From Natrialba swarupiae (GTDB lineage: Archaea > Halobacteriota > Halobacteria > Halobacteriales > Natrialbaceae), in contig NZ_VTAW01000034.1 of the NCBI RefSeq assembly GCF_008245225.1, positions 1-35,342 on the forward strand: a DNA stretch of 35,342 nt. The letters run 5' to 3'. The translations under genes and the position numbers were made by a program. How positions within the stretch are numbered: the first letter of the stretch is position 1; each line of letters begins with the position of its first letter. Positions 19,381 to 35,169 of this stretch are shown here, one piece after another. The notes under the pieces are model-generated. The model was not told where the DNA came from, did no database searches, and was given only the letters and a program-made list of their open reading frames with translations.

Positions 19381-21306
19381 TCAGATGTCGATCCATTCTG
19401 CCTCGGGGGCGTTCTCCTTGATGAACTGCTTTCGGGGCTCGACGGCGTCGCCCATGAGGACGGAGAACATCTTGTCCGCCGCCGCGGCGTCCTCGACCGT
19501 GATCTGTTTGAGGATCCGGTTGTCGGGGTTCATCGTCGTCTCCCAGAGCTGTTCGGGGTTCATCTCGCCGAGGCCCTTGAACCGCTGGACCTGCGAGGGG
19601 TTGCCGTTGCACTTCTGTTCGACGATCTCGTCGCGTTCGGCGTCGGTCATCGCGTCGTAGGTCTCGCCGCGATACCGGATGCGGTACAGCGGCGGCTGGG
19701 TCGCGTAGACGTAGCCGCCCTCCAACAGCGGGCGCATGTGCCGGTAGAAGAACGTCAGCATGAGCGTCCGGATGTGCGCGCCGTCGACGTCGGCGTCGGT
19801 CGCCATGATGATCTTCTTGTAGCGGACGTTCTCGACGTCGAACTCGTCGCCGATCCCCGCGCCGATCGCGGTGATCATGTTCCGGATCTGCTCGTTCTCT
19901 AAGATGCGATCCAGACGGTGTTTCTCGACGTTCAGGATCTTCCCCTTGATCGGCAGGACGGCCTGGAACTCGGGGTTTCGGGCCTGTTTGGCGCTCCCGC
20001 CAGCGGAGTCACCCTCCGCGATGAAGATCTCGGCTTCGTCGGGATCTTTCGTCTGGCAATCGGCCAGCTTCCCTGGCAGCGACGTGGAGTCGAGCGCCGA
20101 CTTCCGGCGCGTGAGTTCTTCTGCCTTCTGGGCCGCCTTCCGCGCTTTCGCGGCCTCGACTGCCTTCAACACGATCGCCTGGGCGGTGTCGGGGTGTTCT
20201 TCGAAGTAGGTGCCAAGCCCCTCGTGGATCGCGCTCTCGACGATACCTCGAACCTCGCTGTTGCCGAGTTTCGTCTTCGTCTGGCCCTCGAACTGCGGAT
20301 CTGGATGTTTCACCGAGATGACCGCGGTGAGCCCCTCACGAATGTCTTCGCCCTTGAGATTTTCGTCTAAGTCGTCGAGTAAGTCGTTGTCGTTGGCGTA
20401 ATCGTTGACCGTCCGGGTCAGTGCGGTCTTGAAGCCGGTGAGGTGGGTACCGCCCTCGCGGGTGTTGATGTTGTTCGCGAAGGCGTGGATCGACCCCTGT
20501 AGCTCCTCGGTGGCCTGCATCGCGACCTCGACCTGGATGTTCTGATCCTCGTCTTCGAAGTAGATGACTTCCTCGTGCATCGCCGAGCGCGTCTCGTTTA
20601 AATACTCGACGAACTCGCGGATGCCGCCGTCGTACTCGTACGTTTCCTCGGCGGTTTCGTCCTCGTCGGCCCGCTCGTCACGGAGCGTGATCCGCACGCC
20701 CGAGTTGAGAAAGGCCAGTTCACGCAGGCGATTCGACAGCGTCGAAAACGAGAACTCGTCGGTCTCGAAGATATCGTCGTCGGGCCAGAACCTGATCTCC
20801 GTCCCGGTCGCCTCGTCGGGCTCCATATCGCGAACCCGCTCCATGTCGCCGACGGGTTCGCCCGCCTCGAACGCGTGGCGGTAGACGCCCCCGTCGCGTC
20901 TGACCTCCGTCTCGAGACGACCCGAGAGGGCGTTGACCACGCTCACACCGACGCCGTGGAGTCCACCGGAGACCTGGTAGGACTTGTTGTCGAACTTCCC
21001 GCCCGCGTGGAGGACGGTGAGAATCACCTCGAGGGCGGGGCGGTCGTACTCCTCGTGTGTGTCGACGGGGATGCCGCGGCCGTCGTCGGCGACGCTCACC
21101 GCGCCGTCGTCGTGGATGGTGACGGTGATCTCGTCACAGTGGCCCGCCAGCGCCTCGTCGATCGAGTTGTCGACCACCTCGTAGACGAGGTGGTGTAGTC
21201 CTCGAGAGTCGGTAGAGCCGATATACATCGCTGGCCGTTTCCGAACGGCCTCCAGGCCTTCCAGGACCTGGATCTGTCCGGCGCCGTACTCGCTTTCCTG
21301 GGACAT
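19381..21306 (-). CDS. gyrB: DNA gyrase subunit B
   Basis: 641 residues. ATPase subunit of gyrase. The GHKL domain shows EVVDNSIDEALAGHC, DDGRGIPVD and the lid GGLHGVGVSVVNALS; this is the novobiocin site. The Toprim domain shows AEGDSAGGSAKQ and the DxDxD metal site in MATDADVDGAHI, followed by the GyrA-interacting C-terminus (GLGEMNPEQLWETTMNP). First gene of gyrB-gyrA. A TTTATTAG element (21338-21345) lies 35 bp before the ATG, so there would be a leader of only a few bases. Confidence 0.98.
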   Translation of the reverse strand: MSQESEYGAGQIQVLEGLEAVRKRPAMYIGSTDSRGLHHLVYEVVDNSIDEALAGHCDEITVTIHDDGAVSVADDGRGIPVDTHEEYDRPALEVILTVLHAGGKFDNKSYQVSGGLHGVGVSVVNALSGRLETEVRRDGGVYRHAFEAGEPVGDMERVRDMEPDEATGTEIRFWPDDDIFETDEFSFSTLSNRLRELAFLNSGVRITLRDERADEDETAEETYEYDGGIREFVEYLNETRSAMHEEVIYFEDEDQNIQVEVAMQATEELQGSIHAFANNINTREGGTHLTGFKTALTRTVNDYANDNDLLDDLDENLKGEDIREGLTAVISVKHPDPQFEGQTKTKLGNSEVRGIVESAIHEGLGTYFEEHPDTAQAIVLKAVEAAKARKAAQKAEELTRRKSALDSTSLPGKLADCQTKDPDEAEIFIAEGDSAGGSAKQARNPEFQAVLPIKGKILNVEKHRLDRILENEQIRNMITAIGAGIGDEFDVENVRYKKIIMATDADVDGAHIRTLMLTFFYRHMRPLLEGGYVYATQPPLYRIRYRGETYDAMTDAERDEIVEQKCNGNPSQVQRFKGLGEMNPEQLWETTMNPDNRILKQITVEDAAAADKMFSVLMGDAVEPRKQFIKENAPEAEWIDI

Positions 21307-30679: not shown

Positions 30680-31561
30680 CTATCGAACGTCCGAACTCGA
30701 AGCCCTCGAGAGCAGATAGACGGCTCCCGCACCGAACACGAGCCCGAGACCGGCGAGAACGGCGACAGCAGGGACGATCGTATCGAGCGCGCCATCGAAA
30801 GCCGTCACCTCGATGACGGTCATCACGTCTTCGTCGAGCATAATCGCACGTGCGGCATCGACGCCGTACGTGACGGGATTGATTCGAGCGAACAGCTGGA
30901 TCCAGTTCGGGAGTACCTCGAGGGGAAGAAAGGCACTCGAGAGGAACAAGAGCGGAAACTGCAGGAGGTTCGCGCCGATGATGGTCGACTCCTGGTCTCG
31001 AGTCAGCACCGCGAGCATATTCGAGAACGCAATAAACCAGAACGAAAAGAGGATTCCGACGGCCATGATCCCGACGGCACCGACGACGCCTGTCGTAATC
31101 TCCGCGCCGAGGAGCACGCCGAGTCCGAGAATGATGGCTATCTGGAGGGCGATGCGGAACACCTCGGCGAGAGTCTTCCCGATAAACACGGCGGTTCGGT
31201 TCATCGGCGAGACGAGTACCTTCTCGAACATGCCGTTCTCGATGTCATTGACCAGCCCGATTCCCGAGGTGACCGCTGACGCGAGTGCGACCTGGATCGC
31301 GATCGCCGGGACGAGAAACGTGGTGTAGTCGACGCCCGGCCCCAACCCCTCGCTCACCGCCCCACCGGCGACGTTGCCGAACACCTCCGTGAACAACACG
31401 AGGAAGATGAACGGCTGTGCGAGCGAGACAACGAGGACGAACGGGTTCCGGACGGCCTTGAGGCTCCAGCGCTTGAAATTGACCCAGACGTCTCCGGTGA
31501 ACGTGTTTGCGGATCTCGCCACCTCGCGGTCGGTGGTTCCCGATTCGGTCGGCGTGCTCAC
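30680..31561 (-). CDS. ABC-2 type export permease
   Basis: 293 residues with about six transmembrane helices and the ABC-2 membrane signature region (SGIGLVNDIENGMFEKVLVSPMNRTAVFIGKTLAE; ARINPVTYGVDAARAIML). It resembles DrrB/NodJ-type drug or lipid exporters. It forms the membrane half of the transporter with the ATPase encoded just upstream. Start is GTG at 31561, overlapping the ATPase TGA by 4 bp, with a GGAGGAG ribosome binding site at 31567-31573. Substrate unknown. Confidence 0.92.
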   Translation of the reverse strand: MSTPTESGTTDREVARSANTFTGDVWVNFKRWSLKAVRNPFVLVVSLAQPFIFLVLFTEVFGNVAGGAVSEGLGPGVDYTTFLVPAIAIQVALASAVTSGIGLVNDIENGMFEKVLVSPMNRTAVFIGKTLAEVFRIALQIAIILGLGVLLGAEITTGVVGAVGIMAVGILFSFWFIAFSNMLAVLTRDQESTIIGANLLQFPLLFLSSAFLPLEVLPNWIQLFARINPVTYGVDAARAIMLDEDVMTVIEVTAFDGALDTIVPAVAVLAGLGLVFGAGAVYLLSRASSSDVR

Positions 31562-32628
31562 GGTGACTCCTCCATTATGGCCGCGCCATCGTCGGTGTCG
31601 ACGCGCTCACCCGTAATCGCGAGGAAGACATCGTCCAGTGTCGGCGCCCGAACATTAAATCCGGTGACGATCAGTCCCGCGTCCCGCAGTGCAACGAGGA
31701 GATCCGTTCCCGACTGACGGGCCGCTTTCGCGGTGACGCTGATTCCCGTCTCGGTCTCCTCAACGGTCGCGGCATCGAAGTCGTCGAACTCGCGTGCGAT
31801 TGTTGCAGCGCGCGCCCTGGCCTCGGGTCCATCGCCCAGTTCGATATCGAGGACATCGCCACCGACCTCCTGCTTGAGATCGGCGGGAGAGCCGTCGGCG
31901 ACAATCCCGCCGTCGAGAATGACTGCCAGCCGCTCACAGAGCGTGTCGGCCTCCTCAAGGTACTGCGTGGTGAGGAAGATCGTCGTCCCTTGCTCGTTGA
32001 TCCGCTGGAAGTACTCCCAGAGCCGATTGCGTGCTGTTGGATCGAGACCAGTCGTCGGTTCGTCCAGGAAGACCAATGGCGGCCGGTGGACGAGCGCGGT
32101 GGCAGCGTCGAGTCGCTTTTTCATCCCGCCGGAGAACTCTTCCGAGCGCTTGTCGGCGACCGCTTCGAGGTCGACGAGGTCGAGCAGTTCGGCAGTCCGC
32201 TCATCGCGGTCGCCCCGTGGGACGCCGTAAGCTTCACACGCGAATCGGATATTCTCCTCGGCCGTGAGCTCCGGATCGATGCTCGTCTCCTGGGCCATGT
32301 AGCCGATCGATTCCCGGATCTTCCGTGGCTCGGTTCGAACGTCGAACCCGTTAACTCGGACCTCGCCGGCAGTCGGTGACAGCAGCGTCGCGAGCACTTT
32401 GATCACCGTCGTCTTGCCCGCGCCATTGGGGCCGAGAAATCCAAAGAATTCGCCGTCACCGACCGTCAGGTCGACGCCGCTGACCGCTTCGGTTCCGTCG
32501 CCGTACGTGAGCTCGAGACCGGAGATGTCGATCGAGGTCTCCTCGGCGAACCCGCTTCGACTCGCACTCGAGCCCTGTGAGTGCTCACGGGGAGTTTCAG
32601 CATCCGCTATCGATTGTTCGTTCGACAT
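31558..32628 (-). CDS. ABC transporter ATP-binding protein (DrrA-like)
   Basis: 356 residues. Walker A GPNGAGKTT with K72, Q-loop GYMAQE, a signature of EFSGGMKKRL rather than LSGGQ, Walker B LVFLDEP, and the D-loop TTGLD. A C-terminal extension of about 100 residues with TLDDVFLAITGE is typical of DrrA-type daunorubicin-resistance ATPases. It powers export through the permease downstream. A TATA-like TATTTCC (32651-32657) lies 27 bp before the ATG, and 6 bp beyond that is ACTTCGAA, a half site of the palindrome found at the HxlR-linked operon. An acidic/Ser N-terminal tail of about 30 residues precedes the domain. Confidence 0.94.
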   Translation of the reverse strand: MSNEQSIADAETPREHSQGSSASRSGFAEETSIDISGLELTYGDGTEAVSGVDLTVGDGEFFGFLGPNGAGKTTVIKVLATLLSPTAGEVRVNGFDVRTEPRKIRESIGYMAQETSIDPELTAEENIRFACEAYGVPRGDRDERTAELLDLVDLEAVADKRSEEFSGGMKKRLDAATALVHRPPLVFLDEPTTGLDPTARNRLWEYFQRINEQGTTIFLTTQYLEEADTLCERLAVILDGGIVADGSPADLKQEVGGDVLDIELGDGPEARARAATIAREFDDFDAATVEETETGISVTAKAARQSGTDLLVALRDAGLIVTGFNVRAPTLDDVFLAITGERVDTDDGAAIMEESP

Positions 32629-32650
32629 ACAGTTGATACGGGCGCAGAAG

Positions 32651-32671
32651 GGAAATACGTCCGACTTCGAA
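32651..32671 (-). promoter_or_regulatory. ABC operon promoter with ACTTCGAA half site
   Basis: The TATA element (32651-32657) is 27 bp from the ATPase ATG. ACTTCGAA (32664-32671) lies 6 bp upstream of it. The same eight bases form half of the 18-bp palindrome 5 bp upstream of the TATA box at 33299, so one regulator could act on both. Confidence 0.5.
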
Positions 32672-32699
32672 ACTCGGTGGTCGCTTCAATAATCGAATT

Positions 32700-32730
32700 A
32701 CTGTTCAGAGTACCGACAGAACTGTTCAGA
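32700..32730. repeat. Direct repeat ACTGTTCAGA x2, 21-bp period
   Basis: ACTGTTCAGA at 32700-32709 and again at 32721-32730: two helical turns apart on the same face. A shorter copy, ACTGTTCA, is at 32780-32787, and another at about 35318. They lie between the ABC operon and the HxlR gene end and may be protein-binding sites. Confidence 0.5.
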
Positions 32731-32789: not shown

Positions 32790-32817
32790 TACGAGCTGAC
32801 CGTTCTCAGAGCTCGTA
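32790..32817 (-). terminator. Hairpin at the end of the HxlR gene
   Basis: TACGAGCT (32790-32797) and AGCTCGTA (32810-32817) form an 8-bp perfect stem around a 12-base loop that contains the stop codon of the HxlR gene (32806-32808). Probably a transcript-end structure; no U tract is seen. Confidence 0.45.
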
Positions 32818-33201
32818 AGACATCGCCCACCTGTGGAGGTGGCCAAACACCGGGAAGATCGCTCGAGCTTTATCCGTCGGTTCGTACTCGACTCGCGGCG
32901 GAACCTCGTCGTAGGCCGTTCGGTCGAGAAGCCCGACCTCGGTCAGTTCCCGGAGTCGTGTCGAGAGCGTGTTCGCCGGTACCTCGAGTGCGGTCTCGAG
33001 GTCGGAGAACCGTAACGGCCCGCTCGCGAAGGCGAACTCGGAGAGCACCGCCATCGTGTGCGTCCGGCCGAGCAGATCGAGCAGGTCAGCGACCGTTTGT
33101 TCGACCCGATCCCGTTCACTCGGCTCCAGCGATTGTCTGAGTCTGCGGGCTTCCTCGGGAGACCGTCCAGCGTCCAACCGAGTTACACTATCGTCGTCCA
33201 T
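32806..33201 (-). CDS. HxlR-family winged-helix transcriptional regulator
   Basis: 131 residues. The HxlR domain covers about 38-130: LLGRTHTMAVLSEFAFASGPLRFSDLETAL (where most members have a W-x-x-x-IL core), recognition helix VPANTLSTRLRELTEVGLLDR, wing YDEVPPRVEYEPTDKARAI. HxlR proteins are small dimeric regulators, often sensing electrophiles, redox state or aldehydes, and frequently control adjacent detoxification genes. The ATG at 33201 is preferred to 33228; TTTTATTC (about 33240) would start the mRNA a few bases upstream of it. No cysteine is present in the sequence, so a thiol switch is unlikely. Divergent from the oxidoreductase operon. Confidence 0.88.
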   Translation of the reverse strand: MDDDSVTRLDAGRSPEEARRLRQSLEPSERDRVEQTVADLLDLLGRTHTMAVLSEFAFASGPLRFSDLETALEVPANTLSTRLRELTEVGLLDRTAYDEVPPRVEYEPTDKARAIFPVFGHLHRWAMSYEL

Positions 33202-33275: not shown

Positions 33276-33293
33276 ACTTCGAAGCTTCGAAGT
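33276..33293. promoter_or_regulatory. Perfect 18-bp palindrome, candidate HxlR operator
   Basis: ACTTCGAAGCTTCGAAGT is identical to its reverse complement. It lies between the divergent HxlR gene and the oxidoreductase operon, 5 bp upstream of the latter's TATA box (GTATAT, 33299-33304), covering the position of the TFB recognition element and just upstream of it. Confidence 0.7.
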
Positions 33294-33298
33294 TGGAA

Positions 33299-33304
33299 GT
33301 ATAT
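33299..33304 (+). promoter_or_regulatory. TATA box of the oxidoreductase operon
   Basis: GTATAT centred about 28 bp before the ATG at 33330, giving a leaderless mRNA for the three-gene unit. Confidence 0.65.
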
Positions 33305-33329
33305 CCCTTTTGACGCCGTACGTCCGGGT

Positions 33330-33959
33330 ATGAAAATCGCCGTTTTCGGTGCAACCGGCCGCACTGGTCGCCCGTTTTGCGAACAGGCGCTCGAGCGCGG
33401 TCACGAGATCGTCGTCCATGCTCGCTCACCGGATCGTGTTCCGTTCACTGACGATCGAGTAACTGTTGTAGAGGGAGATGCCTACACAGGTGACGGTGTT
33501 TCCGAAGCTGTCGAGGGCGTCGACGCCGTCGTCAGCGTCCTCGGTCAGGGTGACGGCTCTCCGAACAATTTGTTGACCGTCGCCGGCGATTACATCACCG
33601 ACGCCATGACGGAGGCGGGTGTCTCGCGATTCGTCACGCTCGTCGGTGCCGGCGTTCGCGAGGACGGAGAGTCCGTTTCGCTCGGCGGGAAGATGATGGG
33701 TGTGCTCCTGAAACTGCTCGCCAGAGACGTTCTCGAGGACGCCGAATTCCACGTCGAGTCCATCCGCGAGACGAACCTCGAGTGGACGGTCGTTCGTGCG
33801 CCGCGGCTGAGCGAGGGCGACCCGATGGGAACGTACCGCGCCGGTGAGATCGATCTCGGATTCGACGCGATCGATCGTGGCGACGTCGCCCGGTTCATTC
33901 TCGATTGTCTCGAGGATAACCGGTACGTTCGAGAGATGCCGAAGGTGGGGCCCGCATGA
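33330..33959 (+). CDS. NAD(P)-binding atypical SDR (BLVRB/NmrA-like)
   Basis: 209 residues. The Rossmann nucleotide loop GATGRTG is at the N-terminus (8-14). VDAVVSVLG and SRFVTLVGAGV are typical of the atypical short-chain dehydrogenase group that includes biliverdin reductase B and YhfK-like proteins. No classical YxxxK catalytic pair is evident, as usual in this group. It may reduce small quinone or flavin-like substrates or act as a redox sensor. First gene of a run of three with overlapping ends; preceded by the palindromic operator. Confidence 0.9.
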   Translation: MKIAVFGATGRTGRPFCEQALERGHEIVVHARSPDRVPFTDDRVTVVEGDAYTGDGVSEAVEGVDAVVSVLGQGDGSPNNLLTVAGDYITDAMTEAGVSRFVTLVGAGVREDGESVSLGGKMMGVLLKLLARDVLEDAEFHVESIRETNLEWTVVRAPRLSEGDPMGTYRAGEIDLGFDAIDRGDVARFILDCLEDNRYVREMPKVGPA

Positions 33960-34339
33960 CCGCTGTCAACCGATACCGAGTCGTCCTCGCCGTCGGCGGC
34001 GCAGTCGCTGCAAACCTCGCCGTTCTCGCACTCGCCCTCATGACTGTCGGTGCTGGCGGGTTCGACCCGTTCGCTGTGCCACCGGTTGCGATTGCCAGCG
34101 CTGTCGGTGCCATCGGGGGTGTCGTCGTCTACGAAGGCTTCAAGCGTGCATTTGGAGATGCAGCCGACCGTTGGTTCGTTATCGTGGCCCTTCTCGTGAC
34201 GGCACTCTCGTTTCTCACGCTCCAGCAGGCAGCCACGTTCGAAGGCGCAACCACGGGACGGCTCGCATTTCTCGGGGCGATGCACGTCGTCGCGGCAGCA
34301 GTCGTCGTCGCCGTTCTTGTCGACTGGGAGGCGGTGTAA
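33956..34339 (+). CDS. Four-helix membrane protein, DUF6069-like
   Basis: 127 residues with four hydrophobic helices and short polar turns. It resembles the small membrane family that I recall as DUF6069, found in bacteria and haloarchaea next to oxidoreductases; function unknown. Its ATG overlaps the previous stop (ATGA) and its stop overlaps the next start (TAATG), so it is firmly within the operon. Confidence 0.8.
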   Translation: MTAVNRYRVVLAVGGAVAANLAVLALALMTVGAGGFDPFAVPPVAIASAVGAIGGVVVYEGFKRAFGDAADRWFVIVALLVTALSFLTLQQAATFEGATTGRLAFLGAMHVVAAAVVVAVLVDWEAV

Positions 34340-35169
34340 TGTTGCTCGTAACAGGCGCGACCGGGACGGTCGGAAGCACAGTCTGCGCGGCGCTCGCCGA
34401 CGGCCCACTCGAGGTTCGTGCAGGGGTGCGATCTCCCGACCGCTTCGACGGACCCACCGACGAGGTTGTCACGTTCGACTTTACCGACCCGTCGACCTAT
34501 CGAGAGACCTTCGAAGGAGTCGATTCCATGTTTCTCGTTCGTCCGCCCGCCCTGTCTCGCGTTCGTCGCGACATCGTCCCGGCACTGGCGGCCGCGGTTG
34601 GGGCGGGCGTCGATCACGTGGTCTTCCTCTCGGTCATCGGGGCAGACCGCAATCGTTTCGTCCCACACGCACGGATCGAGTCGTGGCTCGAGTCGGCACC
34701 GTTCTCGACGACGTTCCTCCGGGCGTCGTTTTTCATGCAGAACCTCTCGACGACCCACCGCGAAGAGATCCGATCCGGCGAGCTGATCGTCCCGGCCGGT
34801 ACCGGTCGGACGAGTTTCATCGATGCACGCGACGTCGCGGCGGTGGCTGCAGAGACTCTCCTCACGGGAACGACTGGCGAGTACGATCTAACTGGACCGG
34901 AGGCGCTGGGGTATCAGGATGTCTGTCGACAGCTCTCGGCAACCCTTGAGCACGAGGTGACGTACACGGCCCCGTCGCTCTGGCGATTTCTGCTTCATTC
35001 GCTCCGAACCGATCGTGGACTCTCGAAGTCTCTCGTCATGGGTGGAATCTACACGACGGCTCGGCTCGGACTTGCCGATCGGATGACTGATGATGTCTCT
35101 CGACTGCTGGGACGTGAACCGACCGCTCTAGAAACGTTCATGGAGGACTTCCGCAGCGTCTGGGAGTGA
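34339..35169 (+). CDS. NmrA-like NAD(P)-dependent oxidoreductase
   Basis: 276 residues. N-terminal Rossmann loop TGATGTVG, then VDHVVFLSVIGADRN and STTFLRASFFMQNLS, the pattern of NmrA/QOR2-type proteins related to quinone oxidoreductase 2 and azoreductase-like sensors. The C-terminal part has the conserved TGPEALGYQDVCRQLS. Likely binds NAD(P)H and reduces quinones or acts as a redox-responsive protein. The start at 34339 overlaps the previous stop by one base and has GGGAGG at 34326-34331. Last gene of the operon. Confidence 0.9.
   Translation: MLLVTGATGTVGSTVCAALADGPLEVRAGVRSPDRFDGPTDEVVTFDFTDPSTYRETFEGVDSMFLVRPPALSRVRRDIVPALAAAVGAGVDHVVFLSVIGADRNRFVPHARIESWLESAPFSTTFLRASFFMQNLSTTHREEIRSGELIVPAGTGRTSFIDARDVAAVAAETLLTGTTGEYDLTGPEALGYQDVCRQLSATLEHEVTYTAPSLWRFLLHSLRTDRGLSKSLVMGGIYTTARLGLADRMTDDVSRLLGREPTALETFMEDFRSVWE

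Follow-up and report, generated by a model that had tools for sequence, protein, structure and literature searches.

A conserved palindrome as the proposed operator of an HxlR-family regulator at paired exporter and oxidoreductase operons in Natrialba swarupiae

Introduction

The window considered here, a stretch of 35,342 nucleotides of Natrialba swarupiae DNA (contig NZ_VTAW01000034.1), carries a gene for an HxlR-family regulator between an ABC exporter operon and a divergent oxidoreductase operon. A palindrome lies at the divergent promoter and a matching half site at the exporter promoter, which raises the question of whether the adjacent HxlR protein reads both, and in what manner. A sequence-only reading of the locus had proposed one regulon consisting of the exporter, two redox enzymes and a membrane protein. 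The features of the regulator, the divergent operon and the exporter operon are as follows.

33276–33293, no strand assigned: perfect 18-bp palindrome ACTTCGAAGCTTCGAAGT, proposed HxlR operator, from its sequence and its conservation at HxlR loci
33294–33304, plus strand: 6-bp spacer/BRE region TGGAAG and TATA box TATAT (33300–33304) of the oxidoreductase operon, from sequence
33330–33959, plus strand: NAD(P)H-binding SDR-like protein (NAD10; PF13460), nearest solved relatives flavin reductase and biliverdin IX beta reductase
33956–34339, plus strand: DUF6069 protein (PF19545), presumed membrane protein
34339–35169, plus strand: NmrA-like oxidoreductase of the QorB/YtfG and triphenylmethane-reductase type
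32806–33201, minus strand: HxlR-family regulator of 131 aa, ATG at 33201, without cysteine (PF01638, E = 2e-18 on the longer TTG-start form)
31558–32628, minus strand: DrrA-type ABC exporter ATPase (PF00005; TIGR01188 at 321.8, above its curated cutoff of 312.45)
30680–31561, minus strand: ABC-2 (DrrB-like) permease (PF01061; TIGR01247 at 109, below its cutoff of 223)

The Palindrome at the Divergent Promoter

The dyad near HxlR is perfect over 18 bp, as had been described, while its distance from the oxidoreductase TATA box, previously given as 5 bp, is 6 bp. In the whole 4.2-Mb genome ACTTCGAAGCTTCGAAGT occurs as a single copy; the nearest other matches, two with three mismatches each, both fall within long open reading frames (ORFs), and dinucleotide shuffles of the window gave a mean of 0.05 matches to the 18-mer at three or fewer mismatches. 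A regulon spread across the organism's own genome is unsupported, the palindrome matches at up to three mismatches being coding. A transcribed hairpin or terminator was also set aside, since transcription from either inferred start site would begin downstream of the dyad. Among 35 orthologous promoters, a TATA-like box fits best at a 6-bp gap in 31, and the palindrome lies 35–36 bp from the ATG in 24, the distance expected for leaderless transcripts with start sites placed by inference.

The half site ACTTCGAA that had been reported 6 bp from the ABC TATA box was recovered at 32664–32671, followed on the minus strand by CGGACG and TATTT (32657–32653). The proposed sharing of motif and geometry is borne out, in that 6 bp separate TTCGAAGT from the TATA-like box at both promoters. 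The 8-bp likeness between the promoters was real but understated, as positions 32637–32674 and 33283–33320 are 79% complementary over 38 nt, in inverted orientation. Exact matches to the promoter-type pattern TTCGAAGTNGGANGTAT occur in the genome at these two promoters only. Two further copies of ACTTCGAA, at 20200–20207 and 20554–20561 on the minus strand, are contained in an ORF of 641 aa on the same strand and probably have no bearing on the matter.

The Exporter Promoter Array

The half site at the exporter promoter was correctly seen, but the picture was incomplete: it belongs to a conserved two-element array, whose upstream member, an imperfect dyad separated from the half site by 11 bp, had been overlooked. 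The array comprises the following elements.

32664–32681, minus strand: promoter-proximal ABC element ACCACCGAGTTTCGAAGT, with strong right arm TTCGAAGT and weak left arm AC
32683–32699, minus strand: upstream 17-bp imperfect dyad AATTCGATTATTGAAGC, consensus ACTTCGATTTCTGTAGT, at a constant offset of 28 bp from the proximal element across 19 orthologous promoters
32653–32657, minus strand: ABC operon TATA box TATTT, 6 bp from the proximal element, with a TATA-like box in the same place in most of the 19 promoters

The 19 orthologous DrrA promoters have a common layout, in which the 17-bp dyad (ACTTCGATTTCTGTAGT) is followed by 11 bp, TTCGAAGTC and a TATA-like box. At the −28 offset the promoters match the 17-mer at 12.9 of 17 positions on average; every other offset averages below 7, save −2, where the match is to the proximal element itself. 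A scan of 25 genomes with TTCGAAGTNNNANGTAT gave 21 matches, 20 of them either at the HxlR locus itself or at a second copy of one of its operons; the remaining one, L162, has no ORF of more than 60 aa nearby. The upstream dyad consensus gave only three-mismatch scatter in the N. swarupiae genome. The array thus recurs in the 19 orthologous promoters and at a second DrrAB copy in genome G205, the conservation at the exporter promoter that a shared regulon would call for. HxlR binding at the proximal element is less certain than at the palindrome, because its left arm is degenerate. At the level of sequence, comparison of the promoters shows that a constant 6-bp interval separates the dyad from the downstream TATA box of the divergent operon, and likewise the variant two-element array from the DrrAB TATA box.

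The second DrrAB operon of G205 (L158; C80 near 3251) encodes a DrrA that is 93% identical and has the same ABC-type array, making it a possible target in trans. Just upstream of the array in the window lies an exact 10-bp direct repeat, ACTGTTCAGA, at 32700–32709 and 32721–32730, 21 bp apart.

The HxlR Regulator and Its Mode of Action

The regulator has an HxlR-like winged-helix domain, with a PF01638 score of 66.4 bits against a cutoff of 20.8, and phmmer matches it to solved HxlR-family structures. The best Foldseek matches to its structure model, which has a modest pLDDT of 67, were HxlR, HypR, YodB and QsrR. By family and predicted fold, the protein would therefore resemble the thiol or electrophile regulators of the Firmicutes HxlR/DUF24 group (Bacillus subtilis HxlR, HypR and YodB; Staphylococcus aureus QsrR). 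It differs from them in the archaeal BRE/TATA context of its promoters and in its lack of cysteine. The conserved N-terminal sensing cysteine of the YodB/HypR/QsrR type is absent, as is any other cysteine; nearly all orthologues are also cysteine-free, and the few cysteines that do occur sit at non-equivalent positions. Cysteine-based switches cannot apply to such proteins, and a YodB/HypR-type thiol switch was rejected for the window's HxlR. For the same reason, ligand binding is the likely trigger, and a ligand pocket would be the likely sensor. In five loci (L081, L083, L100, L107 and L112) HxlR's own promoter has a TTCGAA-type half site near a TATA-like AAGTATT, hinting at autoregulation in some genera.

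The closest arrangement among known systems is that of Escherichia coli ytfH, an HxlR-family gene divergent from the redox enzyme gene qorB/ytfG, which encodes an NmrA-type NAD(P)H:quinone oxidoreductase. The window's HxlR shares 35% identity with YtfH over 80 aa, and the window's NmrA-like protein (NmrA2) shares 25% with QorB (E = 1e-11). E. coli differs in having no adjacent ABC operon, and the first divergent gene of the window encodes a flavin-reductase-like SDR, the QorB-like gene being third. In placing a palindromic site just upstream of BRE/TATA, the locus resembles those of haloarchaeal OxsR and TrmB-family regulators (PMC9426492, PMC4158304), which belong to protein families other than HxlR. 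OxsR is moreover thiol-based, acts globally and has a CG-rich motif, whereas the regulon proposed here is local, with ACTTCGAA arms.

We propose that a winged-helix dimer of HxlR binds the dyad ACTTCGAAnnTTCGAAGT and, by occupying both promoters, co-regulates the exporter, the flavin-reductase-like enzyme, the DUF6069 protein and the QorB-like enzyme. The direction of control could be either. As an activator, HxlR seated at the upstream edge of the BRE would help TFB and TBP to bind. As a repressor, HxlR would sit as a dimer on both the palindrome and the ABC array and keep TFB from the BRE until ligand released it. Many HxlR/DUF24 regulators, YodB and QsrR among them, are repressors relieved by quinones, which counts for repression, as do the presence of those two proteins among the nearest folds of the HxlR model and the possible overlap of the last one or two bases of the site with the BRE region. 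Repression is nevertheless judged somewhat below an even chance. The dyad covers the TATA box of neither divergent gene; in archaea, a site upstream of BRE/TATA is usually an activating one and a site downstream a repressing one (PMC4158304, PMC9426492); and in B. subtilis the response of HxlR to formaldehyde is positive, with enhanced transcription (PMC7835342). With the operator directly adjoining the BRE on its upstream side, and in light of these precedents, we lean slightly towards activation.

Conservation and Specificity of the Operator

Orthologues of HxlR were sought in 392 genomes of the order at E ≤ 1e-25 and were found in 72. Exact ACTTCGAANNTTCGAAGT occurs 18 times in the 392 genomes, once per genome, across 13 genera and six families, where base composition predicts 0.04–0.1 matches. 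Seventeen of these lie about 80–240 bp upstream of an HxlR orthologue, and the eighteenth (L074) adjoins an HxlR remnant and NAD10/NmrA fragments. The association between motif and HxlR has a Fisher p of 9e-13, uncorrected for phylogeny, and related genomes are not independent. Matches with two mismatches in 25 related genomes were mostly judged to be coding noise.

After near-duplicates and cut-off loci were left out, 38 orthologues of at least 60% identity were scored. The motif is conserved at orthologous promoters, the point on which the sequence-only reading had staked its proposal: 35 of the 38 reach at least 13 of 16 positions, and 19 have all 16, as against 5 of 2080 shuffled regions at the lower threshold. 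It is missing at three close orthologues (L082, L102 and L105); in the stretches fetched for L082 and L105, the divergent NAD10 gene is missing as well. Column counts over the 35 sites show a nearly invariant left arm, ACTTCGAA, and flanks that decay except on the TATA side. Most of the more distant HxlRs, of 50–60% identity, lack the motif too (3 of 14 reach 13/16), which, with the three exceptions among close orthologues, counts against the operator reading. In its favour, the motif is absent at 14 HxlR paralogues, whose best score is 11/16. Taken together, these sequence comparisons show a dyad under strong conservation and tied to the HxlR orthologue group. In a distant HxlR subfamily (51–53% identity), L089 and L091 have ACTACAAATTCTGTAGT and ACTACAATTTCTGTAGT, of the form ACTACA-N5-TGTAGT, upstream of DrrA, which suggests operator divergence within the family.

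Many haloarchaeal genera have the gene order NAD10 / HxlR / DrrA-DrrB, so that a conserved operator at the divergent promoter is joined by a conserved neighbourhood, the combination looked for in a local regulon. At several loci the operator persists independently of the neighbouring operon. Natronorubrum thiooxidans (L023) retains a perfect palindrome next to HxlR even though the divergent operon has been replaced and survives only as an NmrA-like scrap, which counts in favour of the operator reading. A second locus of this species, L132 (G359:C21:1-5000), has a 15/16 operator before an NAD10-NmrA operon with both genes intact and only fragments of HxlR and DrrA; an intact HxlR is encoded elsewhere in the same genome. 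Halorubrum sodomense (L024) keeps a 15/16 operator, with the divergent NAD10 protein reduced to its start. At L133, a 15/16 operator with a TATA box (near position 2853; G369:C10:81352) lies about 6 kb from HxlR and precedes a short MRIAVFGE remnant and then an ORF with an F420H2-dependent quinone reductase domain (PF04075).

The retention of the motif at L074 and L132 despite a decayed local HxlR gene could be taken to mean that another, unlinked transcription factor reads the site and that HxlR is a bystander, the more so as HxlR binding is a prediction. This is improbable, since many sites per genome would be expected of a general regulator, the genome of L132 has its intact HxlR, and none of the other 319 genomes, which lack a strong HxlR orthologue, contains the exact motif. 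Least probable is a chance or merely inherited promoter sequence without regulatory function, rejected on the shuffles, the genome uniqueness and the 392-genome counts: short palindromes do arise by chance and much flanking sequence is common to the nearest relatives, but the excess of exact matches over expectation argues against it, as does the survival of the motif amid unrelated flanks in several families.

We conclude that the palindrome is very probably the operator of the adjacent HxlR, which would control both the exporter and the oxidoreductase operons. The single regulon first proposed, of exporter, two redox enzymes and membrane protein, is supported and fits the conserved gene order.

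Implications for Haloarchaeal HxlR Regulation

In the open-access literature searched, no earlier report of a haloarchaeal HxlR or ytfH/ytfG operator was found, nor any characterised member of this HxlR orthologue group. The family is known; the predicted operator and local regulon are well supported, and the operator is previously unreported in that literature. They provide a concrete operator, a target set and a DNA probe for an orthologue group present in about one-fifth of the sampled genomes of the order. From the gene families involved, the regulon would respond locally to some small toxic molecule, perhaps quinone-like, aromatic or another electrophile or drug, and would tie an exporter to redox enzymes within one predicted xenobiotic response. 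The locus also raises the question of how a cysteine-free HxlR senses its signal. Tentatively, a cysteine-free archaeal branch of the family may activate from a BRE-abutting site, with two promoter designs answering to one non-thiol ligand. If so, the single dyad at the enzyme operon and the abutting two-site array at the exporter operon would stage detoxification and export differently.
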